Made by a program: the position numbers and the translations under genes
Part shown: piece after piece, positions 1 through 12,369 of the stretch
How positions within the stretch are numbered: the first letter of the stretch is position 1
Layout: each line of letters starts with the position of its first letter
Notes under the pieces: model-generated
Seen by the model: only the letters and a program-made list of their open reading frames with translations
Told to the model about the DNA's origin: nothing
The model's database searches: none
Assembly (NCBI GenBank): GCA_030425045.1
Contig: JAUHVL010000001.1
Location: forward strand, 186,001 to 250,000
DNA from: a bacterium
Lineage (GTDB): Bacteria > Bdellovibrionota > Bacteriovoracia > Bacteriovoracales > Bacteriovoracaceae
Reading direction: 5' to 3'
Length of the DNA: 64,000 bases

Positions 1-825
1 TGTGGTGTTTTAGGTGATCCCATGATGCATCCTGAAGTATTAAAAATATCTCAATGGTTTCTCGACAAAAAAGCAAAGCTACATATTTCTACAAACGCTA
101 GCCTTAGAAGTGAAGATTTATGGCGTGAGTTGGGTAGTCTCTCCAAATCATCTGATAACCTCTATATCCAATTTGCTGTCGATGGTCTTGAAGACACGAA
201 TCATCTCTACCGGGTCAATACTGATTTTAAAACAATAATGAGAAATATGGATGCTTATGTGTCAGCAGGCGGCGATGGTGGTTGGATATTTATTGAATTT
301 GATCACAATAGACATCAAATTGAGCAGGCCCGGGAGCTAGCTCGAGAAAGAAATTTAGAATTTTTTGTGAGAAGAGCGGCAAAAAATAATATCCAAGAGT
401 GGAAAGTTAAAAAAGAAAAGAAAAAAGTAGATTATAAAGTGACAAGTACTGGCGGGCAGTCACATCGAGAAGCCGAAACCTATAAGAAAATCAGAGAAGG
501 TGATTTTAAATTTGATCATACACAAGTTAATTGCAAGCTTGTGCATGAGGGAGAATTTTTTATTGCTGCGGACTCAACGGTTTGGCCTTGTTGTTATCTT
601 TGGGATGAATATCAAAAAAACGAAACGACATTATTTGATATTATAAATAAACAGGAGTCAGACTTTAATAGTCTTAAAAAATATTCCCTTGAAGAAATAT
701 TTAATAGTAAATTTTATGAGAAACTCCAGGAATTATGGCACGAAGAATCTTCAATATTTTTAAAACGATGTCATTCTTCTTGTGGAGCGAAAGGGAAGCT
801 TCGAAATAGCTTTTCTAAAAACTGA
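1..825 (+). CDS. Radical SAM/SPASM protein, 5' end cut by window
   Basis: The frame is open from base 1, so the gene starts upstream and the N-terminal CxxxCxxC cluster motif is outside the window. The visible part aligns by eye with the complete radical SAM protein at 5950-7032: both have a GDP motif, then DGLEDTNH followed by YR, and a C-terminal Cys set. Here the SPASM-type Cys are in VNCKL, WPCCYLW and KRCHSSCG. SPASM proteins bind extra Fe-S clusters and usually modify peptides, proteins or carbohydrates; the substrate here is unknown. It is the first visible gene of a run of closely packed genes. The first ATG inside the window (22) should not be taken as the start. Confidence 0.8.
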   Translation, partial: CGVLGDPMMHPEVLKISQWFLDKKAKLHISTNASLRSEDLWRELGSLSKSSDNLYIQFAVDGLEDTNHLYRVNTDFKTIMRNMDAYVSAGGDGGWIFIEFDHNRHQIEQARELARERNLEFFVRRAAKNNIQEWKVKKEKKKVDYKVTSTGGQSHREAETYKKIREGDFKFDHTQVNCKLVHEGEFFIAADSTVWPCCYLWDEYQKNETTLFDIINKQESDFNSLKKYSLEEIFNSKFYEKLQELWHEESSIFLKRCHSSCGAKGKLRNSFSKN

Positions 826-842
826 TTTAATTGGTGAACAAT

Positions 843-2051
843 ATGATTAGAGCAATAGACCCAGTAAATGAAGATCCGATTCACATCTCGTGGGACCTCG
901 GTAGAAGATGTAACTTGGATTGTACATACTGCCCATCTCATCGGCATGATAACTTTAGCCCTCATGCAAGTTTAGATGAACTTAAAAAAACGGCGCAGTT
1001 TTTATTTCGTTATATTAAAGCAATAATTCCTTATAGAACCTCTAAGTATGTAAGTTTGGGTTTAACAGGGGGAGAGCCTACCACTAATCCAAACTTTGTT
1101 GAGTTTGCAAAATGGATGAGAGAGGAACATAAAAACAATTATCTGGATGACTTTTTTATCAGCATTAATGTAACGACAAATGGTGTACTAGGAAAACCCC
1201 TAAGAGACAGCTTGGTGAGATATTATGATTACGTCACGATATCATATCATGCTGAAGCTAATGAGAGGCAAAAACAACTTGTTTTGGAGAGTATAGATCA
1301 CTTCAGAGAAAATGATGTAAAGATGAAAATTAATGTCATGTTTCATGGAGAAGAAACTCTTTTTAATGAGTGTAAAAATCTATGTCGAGATTTATTTAAT
1401 AAAGGTATCGGTTTTATTCCAAGGATGATTGGCGAGCATGGTGATGATAATAAATACCATCATAAATACTCTGCTGAGCAGTTGAAATGGATGTCTTCTT
1501 ACTGGGAAGAAAAAAAGAACGAAAACCTTAACGAATTCTTTAATGGAAAACCTCTTTCTAAAAAAGTTAAAGAATATTTATCTGAAACATTTAAGAGGAA
1601 AGAGTCAGTGCCTGAAAAATTAGAAGAGAACAATGGCGAGAAGAAAGGTGCACGTTCTCTAGGAAGACCATGCTGTGGAAATAGAGAGTTTCAAACTATC
1701 GACTCAAGTGGAAAAGCTGAAAAGACAAAGTTTTTAAAGTCAGCAGACTTTATGAATTGGTACTGCTCTGTTAACTGGTTTTTCTTACATATTGAGCAGC
1801 AAACAGGCCTTGTTTATTATCATCAAACATGCCAAGCAGACTTCAACGGTAATCGAGGTGCTATCGCGAATTTAAATGATACGGAAACGTTTTTAAGTAA
1901 AATTGAAAACGATATTAAAAATGGATCTCTTCCTATTATTCAGTGTCCGAATAAAATTTGCGGTTGCGGTCTGTGTACGCCAAAGGCTGAGAATTTGGAT
2001 GAGTTTAAAAAAATCATTAAGAGGCATATTAATGAGGATGTGTTTGCGTAA
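843..2051 (+). CDS. Radical SAM protein with Cys-rich C-terminus
   Basis: The protein has 402 residues from the ATG at 843; a TTG 12 bases upstream is in frame but less likely. The radical SAM core is clear: C23-x3-C27-x2-C30 binds the 4Fe-4S cluster, and GGEPT at about 76-80 is the SAM-contacting motif. The C-terminal third has eight more Cys (about 277, 278, 308, 330, 368, 373, 375, 378), with the last four clustered as CPNKICGCGLC, so one or more auxiliary Fe-S clusters are likely. It follows a radical SAM gene and overlaps the next by one base, which indicates translational coupling. The reaction is not identifiable; a role in sugar or glycan modification is inferred only from neighbours. 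Confidence 0.85.
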   Translation: MIRAIDPVNEDPIHISWDLGRRCNLDCTYCPSHRHDNFSPHASLDELKKTAQFLFRYIKAIIPYRTSKYVSLGLTGGEPTTNPNFVEFAKWMREEHKNNYLDDFFISINVTTNGVLGKPLRDSLVRYYDYVTISYHAEANERQKQLVLESIDHFRENDVKMKINVMFHGEETLFNECKNLCRDLFNKGIGFIPRMIGEHGDDNKYHHKYSAEQLKWMSSYWEEKKNENLNEFFNGKPLSKKVKEYLSETFKRKESVPEKLEENNGEKKGARSLGRPCCGNREFQTIDSSGKAEKTKFLKSADFMNWYCSVNWFFLHIEQQTGLVYYHQTCQADFNGNRGAIANLNDTETFLSKIENDIKNGSLPIIQCPNKICGCGLCTPKAENLDEFKKIIKRHINEDVFA

Positions 2052-3367
2052 TGAGTGAAAATGTTTTTTGTCCTATTCCATGGAACTTCTTGGCCATTAG
2101 ATCTAACGGAGATTTAAGGGTTTGTTGTCAGGCGAACCAATCAAAAAGTAGAGGTATTATTCGTAATGAAGATAATTCTGCAGCGAACGCATCGAATACA
2201 TCACTAATAGCTTCAAGAAATTTTGAGTTAATGAAAAATGTCAGGTCAAAAATGCTTCAAAATGAGTGGCCTGAAGAGTGTATTCGTTGTCAAACAGAAG
2301 AAAAAACAGGCTTAAGAAGCCGAAGAGAGTACGAAAGAGAAAATTGGTTTATAGATAATGAGTACGTCAAAGAAAATACAAAAGAAGACGGTACAATTGT
2401 TATAGAAGACTTTCCTCTCCAGTATTTAGATTTAAGATTTGGTAATAACTGCAATTTATCCTGTCGTATGTGTGGACCTTCAGATAGTTCGAGTTGGTAT
2501 GAAGATCATGTAAAGCTGACGGGAAAAACAGAGTACTGGGATACTCACGGAAAAGTTGAATTAAAAAAGAATGCCGCAGGAAAGTTTTCAACGACTGATT
2601 ACGATTGGTATAACTCTGAATCTTTTTGGAAAGAAATGAATGAAATGGGTTCAGGTGTAAGGCATATCTACATGGCAGGTGGAGAACCCCTTCTCATCGA
2701 AAAACATTTCAGTTTTTTAAATGATTGTATAGGAAAGGGCTTCGCTAAAAATATCATCCTTGAATATAATACAAACCTTTCTTTTTTAAACGAAAAGATC
2801 ATAAACCTATGGGAACAGTTTAAACAGGTAAGAGTTGGAGCATCTATTGACGGTATGGGGGATGTTCTTGAGTATCAAAGACATCCTATCAAATGGGATT
2901 CTACCTTAAAAAACCTGCAGATACTTGATGGATTAAAAGAGAATATATTTTCATGGTTGGCCCTTACCATTACGAATTATAATGTCTTTCACGTACCTGA
3001 GTTTATTAAATGGAAGCTAAAAGAAAGTAACTTTAAAAGAATTAATAGCTCTAAGAAAAAACCCATTATTACTCATCATATGTGTCATTCTCCCCTTCAT
3101 TTGAACATCAGGTCTCTTCCTCCTGAGTTAAAAGAATTGGTTACTAACAAGTACAAAGACTTAATTGCTTGGGGTAATGAGCAAGATTTAACTGACTATC
3201 AAAAAAAGGCATTAGAAAATATTGTTGATGGTGTATTAACCTATATGGAGGCTGAGTCTTATAAGGACTGGGATTACTTCATCGAGTATACTGCTAAGCT
3301 TGACCGTATAAGAAATCAAAATATCCTCAATATAGTTCCAGAGTACGCCCCTTACTTTCAAAAATGA
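2051..3367 (+). CDS. Twitch-domain radical SAM protein
   Basis: This 438-residue protein begins with an extra Cys module before the radical SAM core: C7 in FCPIPW, C25-C26 in DLRVCCQAN and C77-x2-C80. This arrangement matches the N-terminal twitch radical SAM family. The core motif is C134-x3-C138-x2-C141 in NNCNLSCRMCG, followed by a GGEP motif near residue 212. The N-terminal Cys probably hold an auxiliary Fe-S cluster. Members I recall occur in bacterial surface-glycan clusters and some phages, mostly without known substrate. The start overlaps the previous stop by one base and the end overlaps the next gene by four. Family assignment is good; function is open. Confidence 0.87.
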   Translation: MSENVFCPIPWNFLAIRSNGDLRVCCQANQSKSRGIIRNEDNSAANASNTSLIASRNFELMKNVRSKMLQNEWPEECIRCQTEEKTGLRSRREYERENWFIDNEYVKENTKEDGTIVIEDFPLQYLDLRFGNNCNLSCRMCGPSDSSSWYEDHVKLTGKTEYWDTHGKVELKKNAAGKFSTTDYDWYNSESFWKEMNEMGSGVRHIYMAGGEPLLIEKHFSFLNDCIGKGFAKNIILEYNTNLSFLNEKIINLWEQFKQVRVGASIDGMGDVLEYQRHPIKWDSTLKNLQILDGLKENIFSWLALTITNYNVFHVPEFIKWKLKESNFKRINSSKKKPIITHHMCHSPLHLNIRSLPPELKELVTNKYKDLIAWGNEQDLTDYQKKALENIVDGVLTYMEAESYKDWDYFIEYTAKLDRIRNQNILNIVPEYAPYFQK

Positions 3368-4791
3368 TACAAGAAAACTCTTTGCTTATTATCGTAGATC
3401 CCTTTAAACACCTTGAGCCAGAGGACTTTGCAAGATTTCCTGATCATGAAAAAGAGTGTTATGAGTTTGCAAAGAATAACATTTTTCCAATGTCGGTTAA
3501 TTTTAAAAATGTAGTTGTTGCCACTTGGGGAGAGAGAGAGATTTATTCTTTTTTTCAAAATTATAAAAGAGTTTATAGGTTAGATGAAATTGAAAATATT
3601 GAAAACTATGAAGATATTTATTTTTGTGGATTCCATTATGGTCGCTGTATTTTGAATATGCCTATTGGTGTTAGAGCAATGCTACTCCAAGGTAAAAGAT
3701 GTAATGTTCTTGAGACCTTCTCCATGCTATTCCCTGCAGATTCTTTAGAGGCGTGTAGAGAAAAAACAAAAAATGAAGGTGCACTTATTTGTAAGAGTGC
3801 ATTTTCTTTTATTAATGATGGTATAGACTTAAAAAGTTATGACGGTAGTTGCTTAGATGTCTACATATATAGACTTAAATTCGACCAAACCTTAACTCCA
3901 GAAAAATGGCCTAAAAATCTAAAAAAAATTGTTTTAGACTTTAGTCTAGAAAGTTGTTTTAGGTTCTTAGAGAAAAATTCTAAAGAAAGATCGAACTTGT
4001 TCTTTTCATTATTGCCAGAAGTGGAAATTATTTTAAGAACATGTGATACGAATATTAGGTATGTTGAGAATATTTTAAAGAAAATTCCTAATTTGAAAAA
4101 GAGAGTAACAAAACTAGAGCTTTACCCTCTTTTTAGTCTCTATAGAGTAGGCAATAAGAAGAAGGAGTGTCGAAAAGAGTATAAGAACTTTAGATATAAT
4201 AAAATAAATAAAGCATTCATTTTTTTAAATAGAACAACAAATTACTCACGAAATCTCTTATTTCAAAAGATACTATATAGAGAAGATATAAAAAAAAGCA
4301 CTTATACAAGTTGGCTAAATAGGTATAATTCATACTCAATATATGATGGTACTTTAAAGCTTGATGACGATACCGCAGACAAGGTTCAACACTTTTTTCC
4401 AAAGGAATATACTAAAGCTTTGTGTGATATATATTGTGAGACTAATGCTGTAGAAGGTGGTTTTGATCCACCTATGATTACTGAAAAAACTTGGCGACCC
4501 TTGTTGTGTGGTCATCTTTTTTTAGGTTTCGGTTATCAAAATATGTATAGTTATCTGCAAACTCTTGGTTTCAAGTTGTATGATGAAGTACTAGATTATA
4601 CTTTTGACGAGATTAGTTGTATTGATAGTAGAATGGATGCATATTTCAATAGTATTGATAATTTCTTTATTAGTTTTAATAGTGTTGGCCCAGAAGAAAT
4701 TTTTAAAAAAGTGAATAAGAAAATTAGTTTCAATAAGGCTCATGCTCAAGAGCTAGCAAAACATGCTCTCAATTATAGGATCACGAAATGA
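3364..4791 (+). CDS. Unknown protein with glycosyltransferase-like C-terminus
   Basis: I do not recognise the 475-residue protein as a whole. It has no signal peptide or clear membrane segment and is rich in Lys, Phe, Tyr and Asn. Near residues 375-400 it carries ITEKTWRPLLCGHLFLGFG followed by a YLQTLGFKLYDE stretch. That resembles the C-terminal donor-binding region of a set of poorly studied glycosyltransferases in which a Glu-Lys-Thr-(Phe/Trp)-(Lys/Arg)-Pro motif precedes a small hydrophobic strand and a GF pair. The ATG overlaps the previous stop, and its own stop overlaps the next start by four bases. Position between radical SAM genes and a nucleotide-sugar dehydrogenase fits a glycan role, but this is inference. 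Confidence 0.6.
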   Translation: MIQENSLLIIVDPFKHLEPEDFARFPDHEKECYEFAKNNIFPMSVNFKNVVVATWGEREIYSFFQNYKRVYRLDEIENIENYEDIYFCGFHYGRCILNMPIGVRAMLLQGKRCNVLETFSMLFPADSLEACREKTKNEGALICKSAFSFINDGIDLKSYDGSCLDVYIYRLKFDQTLTPEKWPKNLKKIVLDFSLESCFRFLEKNSKERSNLFFSLLPEVEIILRTCDTNIRYVENILKKIPNLKKRVTKLELYPLFSLYRVGNKKKECRKEYKNFRYNKINKAFIFLNRTTNYSRNLLFQKILYREDIKKSTYTSWLNRYNSYSIYDGTLKLDDDTADKVQHFFPKEYTKALCDIYCETNAVEGGFDPPMITEKTWRPLLCGHLFLGFGYQNMYSYLQTLGFKLYDEVLDYTFDEISCIDSRMDAYFNSIDNFFISFNSVGPEEIFKKVNKKISFNKAHAQELAKHALNYRITK

Positions 4792-5960
4792 ACATAGGCT
4801 TTATAGGCTTGGGAAAATTGGGTTTACCATGTGCTGAAGAGTTTTCTCGTCATTTTGATACTTATGGTTATGACGTCGCTAACATTGAAAGTGATTTAGT
4901 CGGTGTAAAGTGGACACGAAGTATTGAGGAGCTAACGAGAAGCTCAGAAGTAATCTTCATAGCCGTGCAAACACCACATGATAAAAACTACGATGGCTCC
5001 AAGCCTACCTCTGAATTAGAGGTTAAAGATTTCGATTATTCTTATGTTCAAAATGTTCTAACAGAGCTATCTGGTTTTGATCTAGAAGATAAAACAATTG
5101 TTTTGATTAGTACTGTTTTACCTGGAACAATTAGAAATATTTTAAAAGCTCCTAAAAAAATACAAGAAAGACTGGTTTATAATCCCTATCTTATAGCGAT
5201 GGGAACAGAAGTAGAGGATCTAATTAATCCTGAAATGCTTATCGTCGGCAATGAGAGTGGAGAAAGAGATCATCACATAGAGAGACTTGAAAACATCTAT
5301 AAAAAAGTAATCAATAAAGACTTTAAAAAAATGTTTGGGACATGGGAAGAAGCAGAATCTACAAAAATCTTCTATAATACTTTTATTTCTACAAAAATTT
5401 CTTTAGTTAATATGATTCAAGATGTTGCCATGAAAATTGGAAATATCAACTGCGATAAAGTGACAGATGCACTGTCAGAAAGCTCCATGAGAATTATTAG
5501 CCCGATGTATATGAAAGCAGGAATGGGAGACGGAGGACCTTGCCACCCAAGAGATAATATTGCTTTAAGCTCTTTAGCTAAGAGGTTGGAGCTAGGTTAT
5601 GACTTATTTGGCAGTATTATGCACTCACGTGAACAACAAGCAAAAAACCTAGCTTGCTTTGTTTTCTCTCACGGTAAAAAGATTTGCATATTAGGCGAGA
5701 GTTTTAAGCCAAATTCAAAAATTAAAACAGGAAGCTCTAGTTTATTAGTTGCCTACTATTTAAAAGAATTAGGTGCTGAAGTATGTTTTGATAAGCATGA
5801 TGAAAAAAGTGATCATAATACTTTTCTTGTTGCCCATAGAGGATGCTTCTATGATTATACATTCCCTGAAAATTCGATCATTATTGATCCTTGGAGAGAA
5901 TTCCCTGATATAGAGAACTCTAAAGTAATACACTACGGAAATACGACAAATGTTTTATAG
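4788..5960 (+). CDS. UDP-glucose/GDP-mannose dehydrogenase family protein
   Basis: Cytosolic NAD-dependent enzyme that would oxidise the C6 hydroxyl of a nucleotide sugar to a uronate in two steps. The 390-residue protein starts with a Rossmann motif GFIGLGKLGLP (residues 4-14). The central domain holds EAESTKIFYNTF and STK with conserved Lys (about 193 and 203), and the likely catalytic Cys is C252 in GDGGPCHPRDN, which replaces the more usual GFGGSCFPKD. The C-terminal nucleotide-binding domain is short compared with typical UDP-glucose dehydrogenases (about 420-450 residues). ATGA overlap with the preceding gene and an 11-base overlap with the next show one operon. The exact sugar is unknown. 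Confidence 0.82.
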   Translation: MNIGFIGLGKLGLPCAEEFSRHFDTYGYDVANIESDLVGVKWTRSIEELTRSSEVIFIAVQTPHDKNYDGSKPTSELEVKDFDYSYVQNVLTELSGFDLEDKTIVLISTVLPGTIRNILKAPKKIQERLVYNPYLIAMGTEVEDLINPEMLIVGNESGERDHHIERLENIYKKVINKDFKKMFGTWEEAESTKIFYNTFISTKISLVNMIQDVAMKIGNINCDKVTDALSESSMRIISPMYMKAGMGDGGPCHPRDNIALSSLAKRLELGYDLFGSIMHSREQQAKNLACFVFSHGKKICILGESFKPNSKIKTGSSSLLVAYYLKELGAEVCFDKHDEKSDHNTFLVAHRGCFYDYTFPENSIIIDPWREFPDIENSKVIHYGNTTNVL

Positions 5961-7032
5961 TGAAAGTATAAAAGCAGTACATATTGAACTCACCGACAAT
6001 TGTAATGTTTCATGTCCTCAGTGTGGAAGAAATAAATTAGGTGGAAGTGATAATCAACATTTACCAAAAAAAGAAATCAGCCTTGAAGACTTCAAAAGGA
6101 TATTCAAAAAAGATTTTATTCTAAATTTAAATAGGATCTATGCTTGTGGGAATTTTGGTGACCCTGTCGTTGCTAAAGATACTTTAGAAATTTTTGAGTA
6201 CCTACGAGAAACCAACCCCGAAATTAGATTGGGAATGAACACAAATGGTTCTGCAAGAGATCGAAAATGGTGGTCACGTATGGGTGAAATTTTCTCCAAT
6301 CTTGGAGAAATTAAGTTTGGGATCGATGGTCTAGAAGATACAAATCACATCTACCGCAAAGGTGCAAATTTTGAAAAAGTCATAGAGAATGCAGCAGCAT
6401 TCATCGAAGCCGGTGGAAAAGCTCAATGGGAATATATAGTTTTTAAACATAATGAGCATGAAGTAGAAAAAGCAAAAGAGCTTAGCGAGAAGATGGGTTT
6501 TGATAAATTTACACTAAAGAAAACAGGGAGATTTTTTTCAAACACGAAAGTGAAAACAAATGAATTTCAGCAAGTTTTAAGAAAAGATGGAACGTTAGAT
6601 TACATAATAGAAAAGCCTACTCTTGAAAAGTATCAAAATAAAAGCTTACAAAAAGAACTGGATATTATTAACCAGTTTGGAAGCATGGATAATTACCTCG
6701 ATCAAACGGATATTGATTGTAAAGTAATGAAAGAACGAAGTGTGTATGTTAGCTCTGAAGGTCTAGTTTTTCCATGTTGCTGGACTGCAAACCAGCTATA
6801 CCTATGGTATATGCCGGAAAAAAGTGGCCAAGTCTGGAATCTTTTAAGCAAAAATGGTGGAAAAGAAATTCTTTCAGCTTATCAACATGATATCGACGAA
6901 ATAATTAAAGGCCCATTCTTTAACTCTTTAAAAGAATTATGGAGTTGTAATTCTGTTAAAAGTGGAAAACCAAAAGTTTGTGCTAAAACGTGCGGAACTT
7001 TGTTTGATCAATTTAGAGATCAATATAAGTAA
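5950..7032 (+). CDS. Radical SAM/SPASM domain protein
   Basis: Complete 360-residue paralogue of the truncated gene at the window start. The radical SAM cluster is C18-x3-C22-x2-C25 (NCNVSCPQCG). Residues 65-72 (ACGNFGDP) and 127-136 (DGLEDTNHIY) are shared with the paralogue. SPASM-like Cys follow at 257, 276, 277, 333, 344 and 348, enough for auxiliary Fe-S clusters. SPASM enzymes commonly modify peptides or sugars by radical chemistry. The ATG lies within the end of the dehydrogenase gene and the stop overlaps the next start by one base, so it is co-translated with glycan genes. No substrate can be named. Confidence 0.87.
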   Translation: MFYSESIKAVHIELTDNCNVSCPQCGRNKLGGSDNQHLPKKEISLEDFKRIFKKDFILNLNRIYACGNFGDPVVAKDTLEIFEYLRETNPEIRLGMNTNGSARDRKWWSRMGEIFSNLGEIKFGIDGLEDTNHIYRKGANFEKVIENAAAFIEAGGKAQWEYIVFKHNEHEVEKAKELSEKMGFDKFTLKKTGRFFSNTKVKTNEFQQVLRKDGTLDYIIEKPTLEKYQNKSLQKELDIINQFGSMDNYLDQTDIDCKVMKERSVYVSSEGLVFPCCWTANQLYLWYMPEKSGQVWNLLSKNGGKEILSAYQHDIDEIIKGPFFNSLKELWSCNSVKSGKPKVCAKTCGTLFDQFRDQYK

Positions 7033-7973
7033 TGAAAGTATCTTGTATTATTCCTTTATATAATTGTGAGAATATTCAAAGGCTGTTGGACTCTATTGAG
7101 AGAAATTCAATAAAACCGTATGAAATAATAATTGTAGATGATAACTCGTCTTTAGATTACGGTTTTCACGATATGAATATTAAGTTTATTAAAATCGATG
7201 AAAATTACGGGCCATCAAAGGCAAGAAATATTGGTGCAAAAGAAGCACGTGGAGAAGTGCTATTATTTCTAGATTCAGATGTAGAAATTGAAGATAATCT
7301 TTTACAGAAGATTATTAAATTCTTTTCAGATAAAAACACATATCAAGTATATAGCGGTAGCTACTCTAGCTTTATTCCAGATGACAATACTTTTACAAAA
7401 TATAAAACGGCTTATATGAAGTATATTCACGAAAATGCTCCATCAGAATCAAATTTTGTATTAGGTGCATGTACCGCCATACTCAAAAAAGACTTTATAG
7501 AGTGGAATGAAAACTATCGATATGCTGAAGATACGTACTGGGGTCATGAACTTTTTTATAAGTACAATAAAAAAATCTTTTTTGATAGAAATGCACAAGT
7601 TAAACATCATAAAAGATATAATTTTTTTAACTGGTTGAGAAACGACTTTAATATCGCATCAGGCATGGTATCTTCTTATCTGATTTTTTTTCCAAATAGA
7701 AATAAGCAGTCTTTTTCACACGTATCACATAATCAAATTTTAGGGCTTATTCTATCTTGTCTCGCAATTATTACCTTCTTACTTAATTCAAAGTTACTTG
7801 CTTTGCTTTGTTTGATAACTTGGTTTGTATTATCAAAAAATTTAGTGAAAAGTATTCAGCAAAAATCAGAGTTAAACTTCATTCTTGTTATAATTTTGGC
7901 ATTTATAAATTCTGTTACACACTTCGCGGGTGTTTCTTATGGTTTTCTGAAGTTTTTAGTCTCTTTAAAATAG
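7032..7973 (+). CDS. Family 2 glycosyltransferase
   Basis: The 313-residue protein has a GT-A fold of the GT2 type: VSCIIPLYN at the start, IIIVDDNSS (residues 32-40) for nucleotide binding, and the DSD metal motif at 81-83 (LLFLDSDVEI). A later ED pair in YAEDTYWGHE (about 169-178) could be the catalytic base region. Residues about 235-310 contain two to three hydrophobic segments, so the enzyme is anchored in the inner membrane with the catalytic domain in the cytosol. It probably adds a sugar to a lipid-linked or surface glycan. It overlaps the preceding radical SAM gene by one base, and the GT-C gene follows after 20 bases. Confidence 0.88.
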   Translation: MKVSCIIPLYNCENIQRLLDSIERNSIKPYEIIIVDDNSSLDYGFHDMNIKFIKIDENYGPSKARNIGAKEARGEVLLFLDSDVEIEDNLLQKIIKFFSDKNTYQVYSGSYSSFIPDDNTFTKYKTAYMKYIHENAPSESNFVLGACTAILKKDFIEWNENYRYAEDTYWGHELFYKYNKKIFFDRNAQVKHHKRYNFFNWLRNDFNIASGMVSSYLIFFPNRNKQSFSHVSHNQILGLILSCLAIITFLLNSKLLALLCLITWFVLSKNLVKSIQQKSELNFILVIILAFINSVTHFAGVSYGFLKFLVSLK

Positions 7974-7993
7974 TTTTTTGATTATAATAAATT

Positions 7994-9325
7994 ATGTTTT
8001 CAAATAAGCTATTCCCAATCATTTTGATTGGTTTTGTTGTTAGATTAATTTTTATCTTAATACAACCATTAAGTCTTGATGAATTACTAACATACGAAGT
8101 CCTTAGAGTTGAAAATATTTCTAATCTTTTTAATCATATTTTAAAAAATGATCTACAACTTCCTTCATTTTATCTATTTTTGTATTCAATAAAAAATCTC
8201 TTTATTGAAAATCATTTCATTTATAGACTCTCATTAGGCTTATTGAGTTTATGCGGAATTTATTTTTCTTACAGAACTGCAAAATCAATAATAAATAAGC
8301 AGGCAGCTAATTTAGCAGCTTTAATTTACTCTCTTTCTTTTTCACTAGTTCTCTTTGGTGTTGAGTTTCGGCCTTATTCAATTTTGCTAGTTTTTTCTTC
8401 ACTTATGAACATGATTTATTTTGAAAAAAAAGAGGGTTATCTTTTAAAACTTGTCATTGTAGGCTTACTTGCTTCAACATTTCACTACTATGGTATTCTT
8501 TTAATCGTTCCTTTTTTGCTTCTTGAATATGATCGATTTACAAGATTTTTTAAGAATAACCCTTTCAAAACATTTTTTTCGTTTGGATTTTTCTTTTTAG
8601 CATTGATTCCAGTTATACCGACTATTATTAGAAACTATAATATAGGTCATACCTATAGAGAAAAAACACTAAGTTACCTTGGGTTAGATCACATCTTAAA
8701 CTTTTTAAGCTTATTTTTTTGGGGTCCAGTAGGTTTTATAATATTTTTGGTAATATTGTTTTTCTTTTTATCGAAAAACAATATTACCAAAATAAATAGA
8801 AAAGTATTTGAGTTAATATTTATTGGCCTTCTTCCCATGTTTCTTGTCTTCATTAAAAGCTTCACGAGCACTCCAACTTTAGAGCCGAGATACTTTATTG
8901 CTTATTTTCCACCATTCGTCGTTTGCTCAGCAGTTATACTTTTCACACTCGAAAGCAAAATAAAAAAAATTATACAACCACTTTTTATCGTCGTTATTTT
9001 CTTTGACCTTTTCGTTTATCGAAACATACTTGTAAGTTTCAGGGAAGATATCAAAGCTAAATATAAATTTAGTGCAAGTGTTGCCAAAGAAATGTCTCTT
9101 CCTATCATCAGTTGTGGGGGATGCTTTTGGCCATATGTGTCATCAGGGGATGACTATACATGCCTCAATGGAAAAAATGCTGGAAATGAGATGCGTGGCG
9201 TTAAAAGGGCCATTGTGGTGCAGTTTCGCGCTGGAGATGCGTCGTGTCGCGACTTATACCCTGAAATGACGAAGTTAAAGTCGATCAAAAACTATAATAC
9301 GTTTCTATATACTGCGTCACAGTAA
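7994..9325 (+). CDS. GT-C family membrane glycosyltransferase (GT39/ArnT-like)
   Basis: The protein has 443 residues and roughly ten hydrophobic segments. The first loop after the N-terminal helix carries SLDELLTYE, matching the acidic Asp-Glu motif that GT-C enzymes use at the membrane face. The segment LAALIYSLSFSL and FRPYSILLVF are typical of GT39/PMT and ArnT relatives, which transfer sugars from polyprenyl phosphate donors on the periplasmic side. The soluble C-terminus is short (about 80 residues) with Cys in SCGGCFW and DYTCLNG. It is the last gene of the accessory cluster; 112 bases separate it from secE. The exact donor and acceptor are unknown. Confidence 0.72.
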   Translation: MFSNKLFPIILIGFVVRLIFILIQPLSLDELLTYEVLRVENISNLFNHILKNDLQLPSFYLFLYSIKNLFIENHFIYRLSLGLLSLCGIYFSYRTAKSIINKQAANLAALIYSLSFSLVLFGVEFRPYSILLVFSSLMNMIYFEKKEGYLLKLVIVGLLASTFHYYGILLIVPFLLLEYDRFTRFFKNNPFKTFFSFGFFFLALIPVIPTIIRNYNIGHTYREKTLSYLGLDHILNFLSLFFWGPVGFIIFLVILFFFLSKNNITKINRKVFELIFIGLLPMFLVFIKSFTSTPTLEPRYFIAYFPPFVVCSAVILFTLESKIKKIIQPLFIVVIFFDLFVYRNILVSFREDIKAKYKFSASVAKEMSLPIISCGGCFWPYVSSGDDYTCLNGKNAGNEMRGVKRAIVVQFRAGDASCRDLYPEMTKLKSIKNYNTFLYTASQ

Positions 9326-11039: not shown

Positions 11040-11744
11040 ATGAAAAAGAAATCAAAAAAGTTTTTAGAAGCACTTTCTAAAGTAGATCAAGATAAATTTT
11101 ATGATATCGACGAAGCTATTGAGCTTTGCAAGACATCATCTTTTGTGAAATTTGACGAGTCAGTTGATCTGGCGTTCAGACTTGGTGTTGACCCAAGACA
11201 CGCTGACCAAATGATCAGAGGGGCAATCGCAATGCCAGCTGGTACTGGTAAAACAATCAGAGTTTGTGTGATCACAAGTGGTGACAAAATTAAAGCTGCT
11301 GAAGATGCAGGAGCTGACTTTGTTGGTGGCGATGAGCTTGTCGCTAAAATTGCTGGCGGTTGGCTAGAGTTTGATAGAGTGATCGCTTCACCTGATATGA
11401 TGGGTAAGCTTGGCCGGATCGGTCGTGTTCTTGGACCTAGAGGTTTAATGCCTAACCCTAAGTTGGGAACAGTAACACCTGACGTTGCCAAAGCTGTTTC
11501 AGAGCAAAAAGCTGGTAAGGTTGAATATAGAACTGAAAAGAACGGTATTATTCATGTTCCAATTGGAAAAGTGTCATTCTCAAAAGAAGATTTAAGAAAA
11601 AACCTAGATGCTATTGTTTCAGCTGTTATTAAAGCAAAGCCTGCTAGTGCTAAGGGTACTTACCTAAAGTCGTTAACAGTGAGCTCAACAATGGGTCCTG
11701 GTGTAAAAATTGATACAATGGAAGCTTTAAATATTGCTAACTAA
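11040..11744 (+). CDS. rplA: 50S ribosomal protein L1
   Basis: Forms the L1 stalk at the E site; in other bacteria it also represses translation of rplK-rplA. The protein is 234 residues, the usual length. Recognisable parts are [11 protein letters not shown], the [14 protein letters not shown] motif in domain II and [14 protein letters not shown] near the end. A perfect GGGAGG Shine-Dalgarno lies six bases before the ATG, in a short 44-base gap that also holds a second GGGAGG. The downstream gap to rplJ holds a structured leader. Confidence 0.98.
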
Positions 11745-11823
11745 CCGAGGTTGATGATGGTCGGTTGGAAATGATTTCCTATAAAGCCTGCCTGAAACTC
11801 CCTCCAAAATAAGGAGGTCGTTT
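11745..11823 (+). promoter_or_regulatory. Candidate L10-type leader before rplJ
   Basis: This 79-base gap contains three self-complementary parts: CCGA with TCGG near the 5' end, a perfect hairpin GGAAA-TGA-TTTCC at 11767-11779, and CCTCC (11801-11805) facing GGAGG (11813-11817) across a seven-base loop. GGAGG is the rplJ Shine-Dalgarno, six bases before its ATG. The position matches that of known L10 leaders, where L10-L7/L12 represses its own translation. Assignment to that RNA family is inferred from position and foldability; I could not run a covariance model. Confidence 0.5.
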
Positions 11824-12369
11824 ATGTTAAAACGAGCTGAGAAAGACGAAATTATTGCGGGATTAAAAACGGACATTGAATCCGCAAAAGCCGTTTTTCT
11901 GACAAACGTTATTGGTGTTGGCGCCAATGACACTGTGGCACTCCGAAAAAAAATTCGTGATGCCAATGGGAAGTTGGTAGTTACTCGTAACACTCTTTTT
12001 AGAAAAGGTTCTGCTGGAACTGCTGCTGAGAATATGCTTGCTCAGTTAAAAGGTCCACACGCATTAGCTTTTGCTTTTGAAGATGCTGTTGGTGTAGCTA
12101 AGGCCCTAAAAGAAACCAACAAAGAGTTTGAAATTGTTGAACTACTTGGTGGAGTTCTTGATGGTAAGGAATTGAGTGTTCCTGAAATTAAGCAACTTGC
12201 TGATCTACCATCTCGCGAAGAAATGCTTGGTACATTACTCGCAACTATGATGGCGCCTACTTCTGCTATGGCTAGATTGATGAATGCAATCAAAGACAAG
12301 TGTGAAGAGCAAGGTGTTGAGTCACCAGGAAAGTTAACAGTAGAAGCTGCAGCTGAAACTGCAGAGTAA
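11824..12369 (+). CDS. rplJ: 50S ribosomal protein L10
   Basis: Base of the L7/L12 stalk: the N-terminal domain binds 23S rRNA and L11, and the C-terminal helix holds L12 dimers. The 181 residues include KLVVTRNTLFRKG and KGPHALAF, typical of L10, and the Glu/Ala-rich C-terminal helix. It starts at ATG after AGGAGG, which can be masked by an upstream CCTCC. It is followed by rplL after 29 bases. L10 with L12 is the likely autorepressor of this pair, by analogy with other bacteria. Confidence 0.97.
   Translation: MLKRAEKDEIIAGLKTDIESAKAVFLTNVIGVGANDTVALRKKIRDANGKLVVTRNTLFRKGSAGTAAENMLAQLKGPHALAFAFEDAVGVAKALKETNKEFEIVELLGGVLDGKELSVPEIKQLADLPSREEMLGTLLATMMAPTSAMARLMNAIKDKCEEQGVESPGKLTVEAAAETAE

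Follow-up and report, generated by a model that had tools for sequence, protein, structure and literature searches.

A radical SAM-rich gene island beside secE in a Bacteriovoracaceae genome and its modular counterparts in aquatic T4-like phages

We analysed a window of 64,000 nucleotides (C34:186001-250000, GenBank contig JAUHVL010000001.1) from the 3.97 Mb, 91-contig draft genome of a member of the Bdellovibrionota, family Bacteriovoracaceae. The window opens with a cluster of eight genes, four of which encode radical S-adenosylmethionine (rSAM) proteins. In our best reading, these genes belong to a chromosomal island whose gene sets correspond, on the bacterial side, to cassettes of aquatic T4-like phages, a modular cassette for sugar or glycan modification being shared by phages and bacteria. 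With moderate confidence, we conclude that the cluster most likely makes a sugar of unusual chemistry, which probably derives from a uronic acid, and attaches it to a surface glycan or protein.

Genes were called mechanically as open reading frames (ORFs) on the draft assembly. The first-pass annotation, made from the letters of the window, had described eight consecutive, co-oriented and mostly overlapping genes with four rSAM proteins among them, and its coordinates, families and overlaps agreed with ours. All eight genes lie on the plus strand; the junctions measure, in order, +5, -1, -4, -4, -11, -1 and +20 bases, so that five of the seven are overlaps of 1 to 11 bases. On the right the cluster ends before secE; its left limit was only the edge of the window. 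The cluster is the right end of an island of about 47 kb (C34:148124 to 195325), which continues 38 kb to the left of the window and has 48 called ORFs on both strands, 14 of them with a CxxxCxxC motif. Fourteen of the 50 PF04055 matches in the genome fall inside this island, which makes up 1.2% of the genome and would be expected to hold about 0.6; the enrichment in rSAM genes is far beyond chance. The cluster is more than a random collection, since in distant genomes and in phages the rSAM genes recur together and in company with a partner of transferase type. A single system of eight genes was not supported: genes 1 to 4 form module B, gene 6 belongs to module A, and genes 5, 7 and 8 are joined to these. 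The island is an accretion of modules, not one operon; we rejected a single-operon reading because both strands are used and at least three modules are present. The window genes (window coordinates) and the modules (contig coordinates) are as follows.

1..825, plus strand: gene 1 (3' part), SPASM-type rSAM protein of module B; PF13186 at 28.6 bits against a cut-off of 21.5
831..2051, plus strand: gene 2 (W2_rSAM186), rSAM protein of module B with a Cys-rich C terminus; PF04055 at 46 bits, CNLDCTYC at residue 27
2051..3367, plus strand: gene 3 (twi188), N-twitch rSAM protein of module B; NF033640 at 376 bits against a cut-off of 170
3364..4791, plus strand: gene 4 (GTx), module B, fusion of two proteins (residues ~5-142 and ~156-467) that are separate genes elsewhere
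4788..5960, plus strand: gene 5, UDP-hexose dehydrogenase (UGDH) of marine-phage type; PF00984 at 65 bits, PF03721 at 60 bits, phrog_9148 at 282 bits
5950..7032, plus strand: gene 6 (W6), SPASM-type rSAM protein, core of module A; PF04055 at 48.8 bits
7032..7973, plus strand: gene 7, family 2 glycosyltransferase (GT2) with hydrophobic C-terminal segments; PF00535 at 92 bits
7994..9325, plus strand: gene 8, membrane glycosyltransferase-C (GT-C)/PMT_2-like protein at the right end of the island; PF13231 marginal, at 26.5 against 26.1 bits
9438..9824, plus strand: secE, the next gene after gene 8 and the right border of the island, followed by nusG and rplK
Module A: gene 6 with a twitch rSAM gene at C34:170823, rSAM169 at C34:169733, YDEP genes at C34:168932 and 172283, and MT173, for a methyltransferase-like protein, at C34:173219
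Module B: window genes 1 to 4; rarer, in related genomes G222 (locus L074) and G247 and partly in G259
Module C: a twitch rSAM gene at C34:174417, a B12-type rSAM gene at C34:175596, a PP-loop gene at C34:181864 and a SPASM gene at C34:178109

The modules were told apart by comparing loci across 369 genomes of the phylum, where counts are inflated by kinship among the genomes. W6 was present in 21 genomes and its twitch partner in 20; both occurred together in 19, and each alone in only 2 and 1, respectively (Fisher p = 1.4e-28, relatedness ignored). For the modules, this distribution disfavours the possibility, raised beforehand, that the genes are scattered independently among relatives. In 15 of about 21 bacterial loci, a span of at most 20 kb took in the genes for W6, the twitch protein and the third rSAM protein, and orthologues of the module A twitch protein in relatives were 50-78% identical to that of the window genome. 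Module C was seen in G247 and, lacking the SPASM gene, in G222. A small Rossmann-like protein with a GNPEYGLA or GNGEYGLA start was encoded beside SPASM or rSAM169 genes in the Bdellovibrionota loci L084, L052 and L445 and may be an extra module member.

The same families recur in viral genomes. Viral loci were taken as the best matches of seeded scans of IMG/VR contigs. Relatives of gene 6 were found in at least 476 viral contigs. Among the best 80 loci seeded with gene 6, 53 were longer than 8 kb, and 49 of these carried SPASM, twitch and third rSAM genes together. MT173 was present in 74 of the 80, and the median identity to core island genes was 36-46%. Independent seeds recovered the same partners: the best 80 YDEP-seeded loci contained twitch (60), SPASM (49), MT173 (41) and UGDH (18) genes, and the best 80 loci seeded with rSAM169 contained twitch (62) and SPASM (60) genes. 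The recurrent gene order in phages was UGDH - YDEP - rSAM169/MT173/SPASM - twitch. The UGDH proteins of the phage cassettes were mostly 44-51% identical to gene 5, and QueC-like PP-loop and methyltransferase-like proteins co-occurred in the cassettes. As a control, the same profiles were run on some 295 kb of this contig beyond the island limits and gave only three weak generic rSAM matches, on two genes. The T4 capsid protein Gp23 was found in 11 of 40 tested viral contigs, the rest being mostly fragments; at least some of the viral contigs are therefore genuine T4-like phages.

The neighbourhood of tail-fibre genes was checked in viral contig L283 and in pelagiphage Mosig. In L283, a 1057-aa tail-fibre protein is encoded a few kb upstream of the cassette. 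Mosig carries eight genes of island families in 14 kb beside annotated tail-fibre genes and shares with the island the AspHyd, TauD, AT156, desaturase, SPASM, rSAM and MT173 families. Families of the island are linked to one another in phage genomes and, in L283 and Mosig, lie near tail-fibre genes, as in the rSAM cassettes of phage host-recognition clusters. Campylobacter phage CP220 gave SPASM and third-rSAM profile matches, and Vibrio phage K566 gave four twitch matches. Searched by tblastn against isolate phages, rSAM169, YDEP and the twitch protein of module A gave no match. A viral scan seeded on gene 4 alone returned none, in part because phages carry its N and C parts as split genes.

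As to the first-pass proposal of an undescribed system, multi-rSAM phage modules are already in print without a function. In Campylobacter phages CP220 and CPt10, Timms et al. (2010) reported a module of five rSAM genes that is interchangeable, includes an amidinotransferase and was assigned no function (PMC2853527). Points of likeness are that these phages are T4-related, encode 11-12 rSAM proteins per genome and carry a 10-12-gene cluster with five rSAM genes (PMC2853527), nucleotide-diphospho-sugar transferase-like genes and an annotated tail fibre downstream. Unlike the island, CP220 had no UGDH, YDEP or MT173 match in the stretch examined, and it carries a glycine amidinotransferase. The host-recognition cluster of pelagimyophages is hypervariable and holds tail fibres, glycosyltransferases and rSAM cassettes (PMC7029224). 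It resembles the island, for example in Mosig, in its shared families and tail-fibre context, but the paper defines no rSAM module or bacterial counterpart (PMC7029224). Our search of the open-licence literature found no description of the module or of its bacterial counterpart. Multi-rSAM phage cassettes were thus known before, though with no function assigned and, in the literature we found, no bacterial counterpart. A survey of Baltic Sea viruses listed 261 viral genes under the name 'ahbD', with their function in doubt (PMC9301287), and some of these genes may belong to the rSAM family of the module. Lake and sea phage genomes carry hundreds of copies of module rSAM genes; with its core defined and a bacterial counterpart at hand, this so far unexplained pool of phage genes becomes a pathway that can be put to the test.

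Structure prediction gave a confident model for the YDEP protein, with a predicted local distance difference test score (pLDDT) of 82.6. Compared with the PDB, the model matched GT-A transferases (SunS/ThuS, WrtF and a PBCV-1 capsid glycosyltransferase) with E values of 1e-4 to 1e-3 and template modelling (TM) scores of 0.3-0.45, and the protein has a conserved DGDN/DxD-like motif. YDEP is thus predicted to belong to the GT-A fold class, a match that gives no specificity. In all three module A rSAM proteins, cysteines are invariant from phage to bacterium, which implies that they are functional radical enzymes with auxiliary clusters. The Pfam SPASM model (PF13186) was not called in gene 6; in its C-terminal part C257, C276, C277, C344 and C348 are invariant. 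The MT173 homologue in Mosig is annotated as a methyltransferase.

Trees of the module A proteins make gene exchange between phages and bacteria plausible. In the W6 tree, orthologues from Bdellovibrionota cluster separately from the viral sequences and next to them. In the rSAM169 and twitch trees, one viral group lies inside the bacterial group, next to sequences of the family of the window genome (Bacteriovoracaceae), and for the twitch partner the approximately unbiased (AU) test does not reject a single bacterial clade (p = 0.157). On these trees, a recent import from phage was set aside, and exchange may have run in either direction.

The whole of gene 1 begins at C34:185827, 174 bases left of the window, and encodes 332 aa; its upstream part holds CNAECPGC, and with it PF04055 matches C34:185857-186294 at 30.9 bits. 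Its counterparts in G222 and G247 are 39% and 48% identical. CxxxCxxC was found in genes 2, 3 and 6, all of which also pass the PF04055 cut-off. Orthologues of gene 2, at 47-50% identity, occur in 3 of the 369 genomes. Gene 3 matches the full NF033640 model (residues 4-435 against profile positions 2-397 of 398), a family that itself carries no assigned reaction; its relatives are 45-49% identical in G082, G222, G247, G257 and G259 and 41-42% identical in phage contigs L287 and L371. Gene 4 matched no Pfam, NCBIfam or PHROG family in profile searches. Its N and C parts are separate genes in the bacterial genomes G222 and G247 and likewise in phage contig L281; gene 4 of the window is therefore a fusion, and this fusion suggests that the two parts act jointly. 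The C part holds a TEKTWRP motif, which we take to be glycosyltransferase-like; a predicted structure of the protein was set aside for its low confidence (pLDDT 48.6). Gene 5 is 46-48% identical to proteins of Pelagibacter phage HTVC008M and Synechococcus phage Bellamy. It scores 155.9 on the broad TIGR03026 model, under the cut-off of 189.8, with both Pfam domains above theirs.

The conserved partners, UGDH and the GT-A-fold protein, suggest sugar modification, as the first-pass annotation had proposed, and would point to a uronate-type route. Gene content, insertion site, rSAM-set co-occurrence, phage sharing and GT-A fold class are computed results, whereas the substrate, the order of steps, the product and the acceptor named below are inferences. 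The gene 5 dehydrogenase would oxidise a UDP-hexose to a UDP-hexuronate. The YDEP and GTx transferases would place the sugar. Sets of three [4Fe-4S] rSAM enzymes (SPASM, N-twitch and third) would carry out C-H-based steps on the nucleotide sugar or glycan, candidates being epimerisation, dehydration, decarboxylation or a C-C change, and the methyltransferase-like protein would cap the product. In this bacterium, GT2 and GT-C might transfer the sugar to a lipid carrier and from there to an acceptor on the far side of the membrane. From such a route one would expect radical chemistry of an unusual kind on sugars that matter in phage-host recognition. More tentatively, the conserved three-rSAM unit with a dedicated GT-A-fold transferase and a methyltransferase-like protein might constitute a class of radical glycochemistry not described so far; aquatic T4-like phages and Bdellovibrionota would exchange this unit, which would remodel virion or cell-surface sugars and so change phage recognition.

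Several observations weigh against a sugar route. The first-pass annotation had asked whether the rSAM genes co-occur with the same transferases; this holds for the GT-A-fold YDEP protein, encoded outside the window, but neither the rSAM genes nor any module keep GT2 and GT-C (genes 7 and 8) as partners, apart from weak homologues in genome G014 (31% for gene 7). The related bacterial loci that we examined all lack UGDH, and only some phage cassettes have it. The GT-A match of YDEP concerns the fold class only, with a TM score of about 0.4, and matches of the rSAM proteins to profiles of solved structures were only generic (MoaA, NifB, viperin, SkfB and cytosylglucuronate decarboxylase). The PP-loop ATPases, desaturases and 2-oxoglutarate (2OG) oxygenases of this gene pool would also be at home in the chemistry of lipids, amino acids or nucleic acids.

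Among described systems, the Arn pathway (Ugd-ArnA-ArnB-ArnC-ArnT) and Gtr systems likewise place a UDP-hexose dehydrogenase, a GT2 and a membrane GT-C side by side; their scheme is to oxidise a UDP-sugar, load a lipid carrier and transfer outside. Unlike in these systems, ArnA, ArnB and a flippase were not found among the scanned proteins, rSAM proteins stand in their place, and gene 7 scores only marginally on the ArnC model. No Wzx/Wzy or ABC exporter appeared in Pfam scans of the window and upstream island proteins, several upstream membrane proteins being without a family; a classical polysaccharide locus, lacking flippase, polymerase and exporter, was rejected. BtrN, NeoN, AviX12 and BlsE are rSAM sugar or cyclitol enzymes of antibiotic pathways. 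They would share with the island radical chemistry on such substrates; the sequence similarity is only generic (BlsE profile, E 1.9e-4).

The rSAM proteins might instead act on a peptide or protein, such as a ribosomally synthesized and post-translationally modified peptide (RiPP) or a tail fibre, with the transferases glycosylating the peptide. SPASM and twitch enzymes are best known as peptide maturases, genes 2, 3 and 6 have weak NCBIfam matches to rSAM proteins of that type, and 2OG Asp/Asn hydroxylase families are present in the island; phage cassettes can adjoin tail-fibre genes, and the peptide S-glycosyltransferases SunS/ThuS rank first in the YDEP fold search. We nevertheless consider this unlikely, and the peptide alternative of the first-pass annotation was not upheld: scans of the island genes found no precursor gene, RiPP recognition element (RRE), peptidase or exporter, and ORFs cover 99% of the island, the largest gaps being 125, 98, 76 and 65 bases. 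Pfam scans gave no RRE and the window operon has no intergenic room, ORFs below 70 aa elsewhere not having been checked exhaustively; a RiPP system was rejected for want of a precursor or RRE. That the proteins hypermodify phage DNA or tRNA appears improbable to us. The QueC-like PP-loop and methyltransferase-like proteins of the cassettes would suit this, as would glycosyltransferases, known from phage base modification, but SPASM and twitch rSAM proteins, a UDP-hexose dehydrogenase, TauD and desaturases are untypical, the cassettes lie near tail fibres, and the families are shared with a bacterial chromosomal island.

A small-molecule natural product, aminocyclitol- or nucleoside-like, in place of glycan decoration seems equally doubtful. 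SPASM and twitch rSAM proteins, pyridoxal phosphate (PLP) enzymes, an amidinotransferase, 2OG oxygenases and methyltransferases resemble aminoglycoside-type sets, and Campylobacter phage modules do include an amidinotransferase (PMC2853527). Phages, however, seldom encode whole pathways of this kind, an export or resistance gene was not noticed, and a membrane GT-C with a GT2 is better suited to glycan transfer. As for a hot-spot heap of unrelated, horizontally acquired genes without joint function, the use of both strands, at least three modules, a sporadic distribution and the lack of conservation of genes 5, 7 and 8 with genes 1 to 4 and 6 in related bacteria all fit. This is true of the island as a whole and not of modules A to C; as an account of the cluster we regard it as very improbable, since the same partners recur in distant bacteria and phages from independent seeds.

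The island has a coding fraction of 99% and a GC content of 33.0%, against 34.8-36.6% in its flanks. Its other genes encode three TauD-type and two Asp/Arg-hydroxylase-type oxygenases, two desaturases, a SET/GNAT protein, PP-loop ATPase-like proteins, a PLP-type protein, two YDEP proteins and paired membrane proteins, for which the name 'HTTM' was dropped as lacking Pfam support. No phage structural gene was noticed in the island itself. The island lies between tRNA-Trp (C34:148045-148120) and secE, here 47 kb apart. This tRNA is found just upstream of secE in 20 of 29 relatives, at less than 400 bp in 19 of the 20. The right end of the island holds no copy of the tRNA-Trp 3' end, and no integrase was found among the scanned island genes; an integrative element at tRNA-Trp was rejected because the 3' duplication is absent.

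Two small proteins of the island (C34:153237-153635, L005:4237-4635; and 160430-161017, 11430-12017) have Tat-like N termini, DRRKLILKG and TRRSIIKK. Each gene directly precedes that of a TauD-family oxygenase, and the proteins could be exported substrates. Further insertions occupy the same translation gene region (C34:140384-148120): some 4 kb separates tRNA-Gly from tRNA-Thr, and tuf is separated from tRNA-Trp by two genes, one of them a twitch rSAM gene. Relatives of gene 6 at 30-34% identity occur in Alphaproteobacteria such as Limibaculum (L077, L078, L080-L083, L085); in the four mapped loci (L077, L081, L082, L085) no module partner was found. In the relative G014 (C2:100001-190000, L051-L055), several rSAM and glycan gene groups are scattered, with an amidinotransferase-like gene beside a twitch and a B12-type rSAM gene. 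Within the window genome, gene 3 and at least 10 other proteins exceed the NF033640 cut-off, and a second region (G000:C66:6126-18265, L440) holds at least five further rSAM genes, mostly without a close match to island families.

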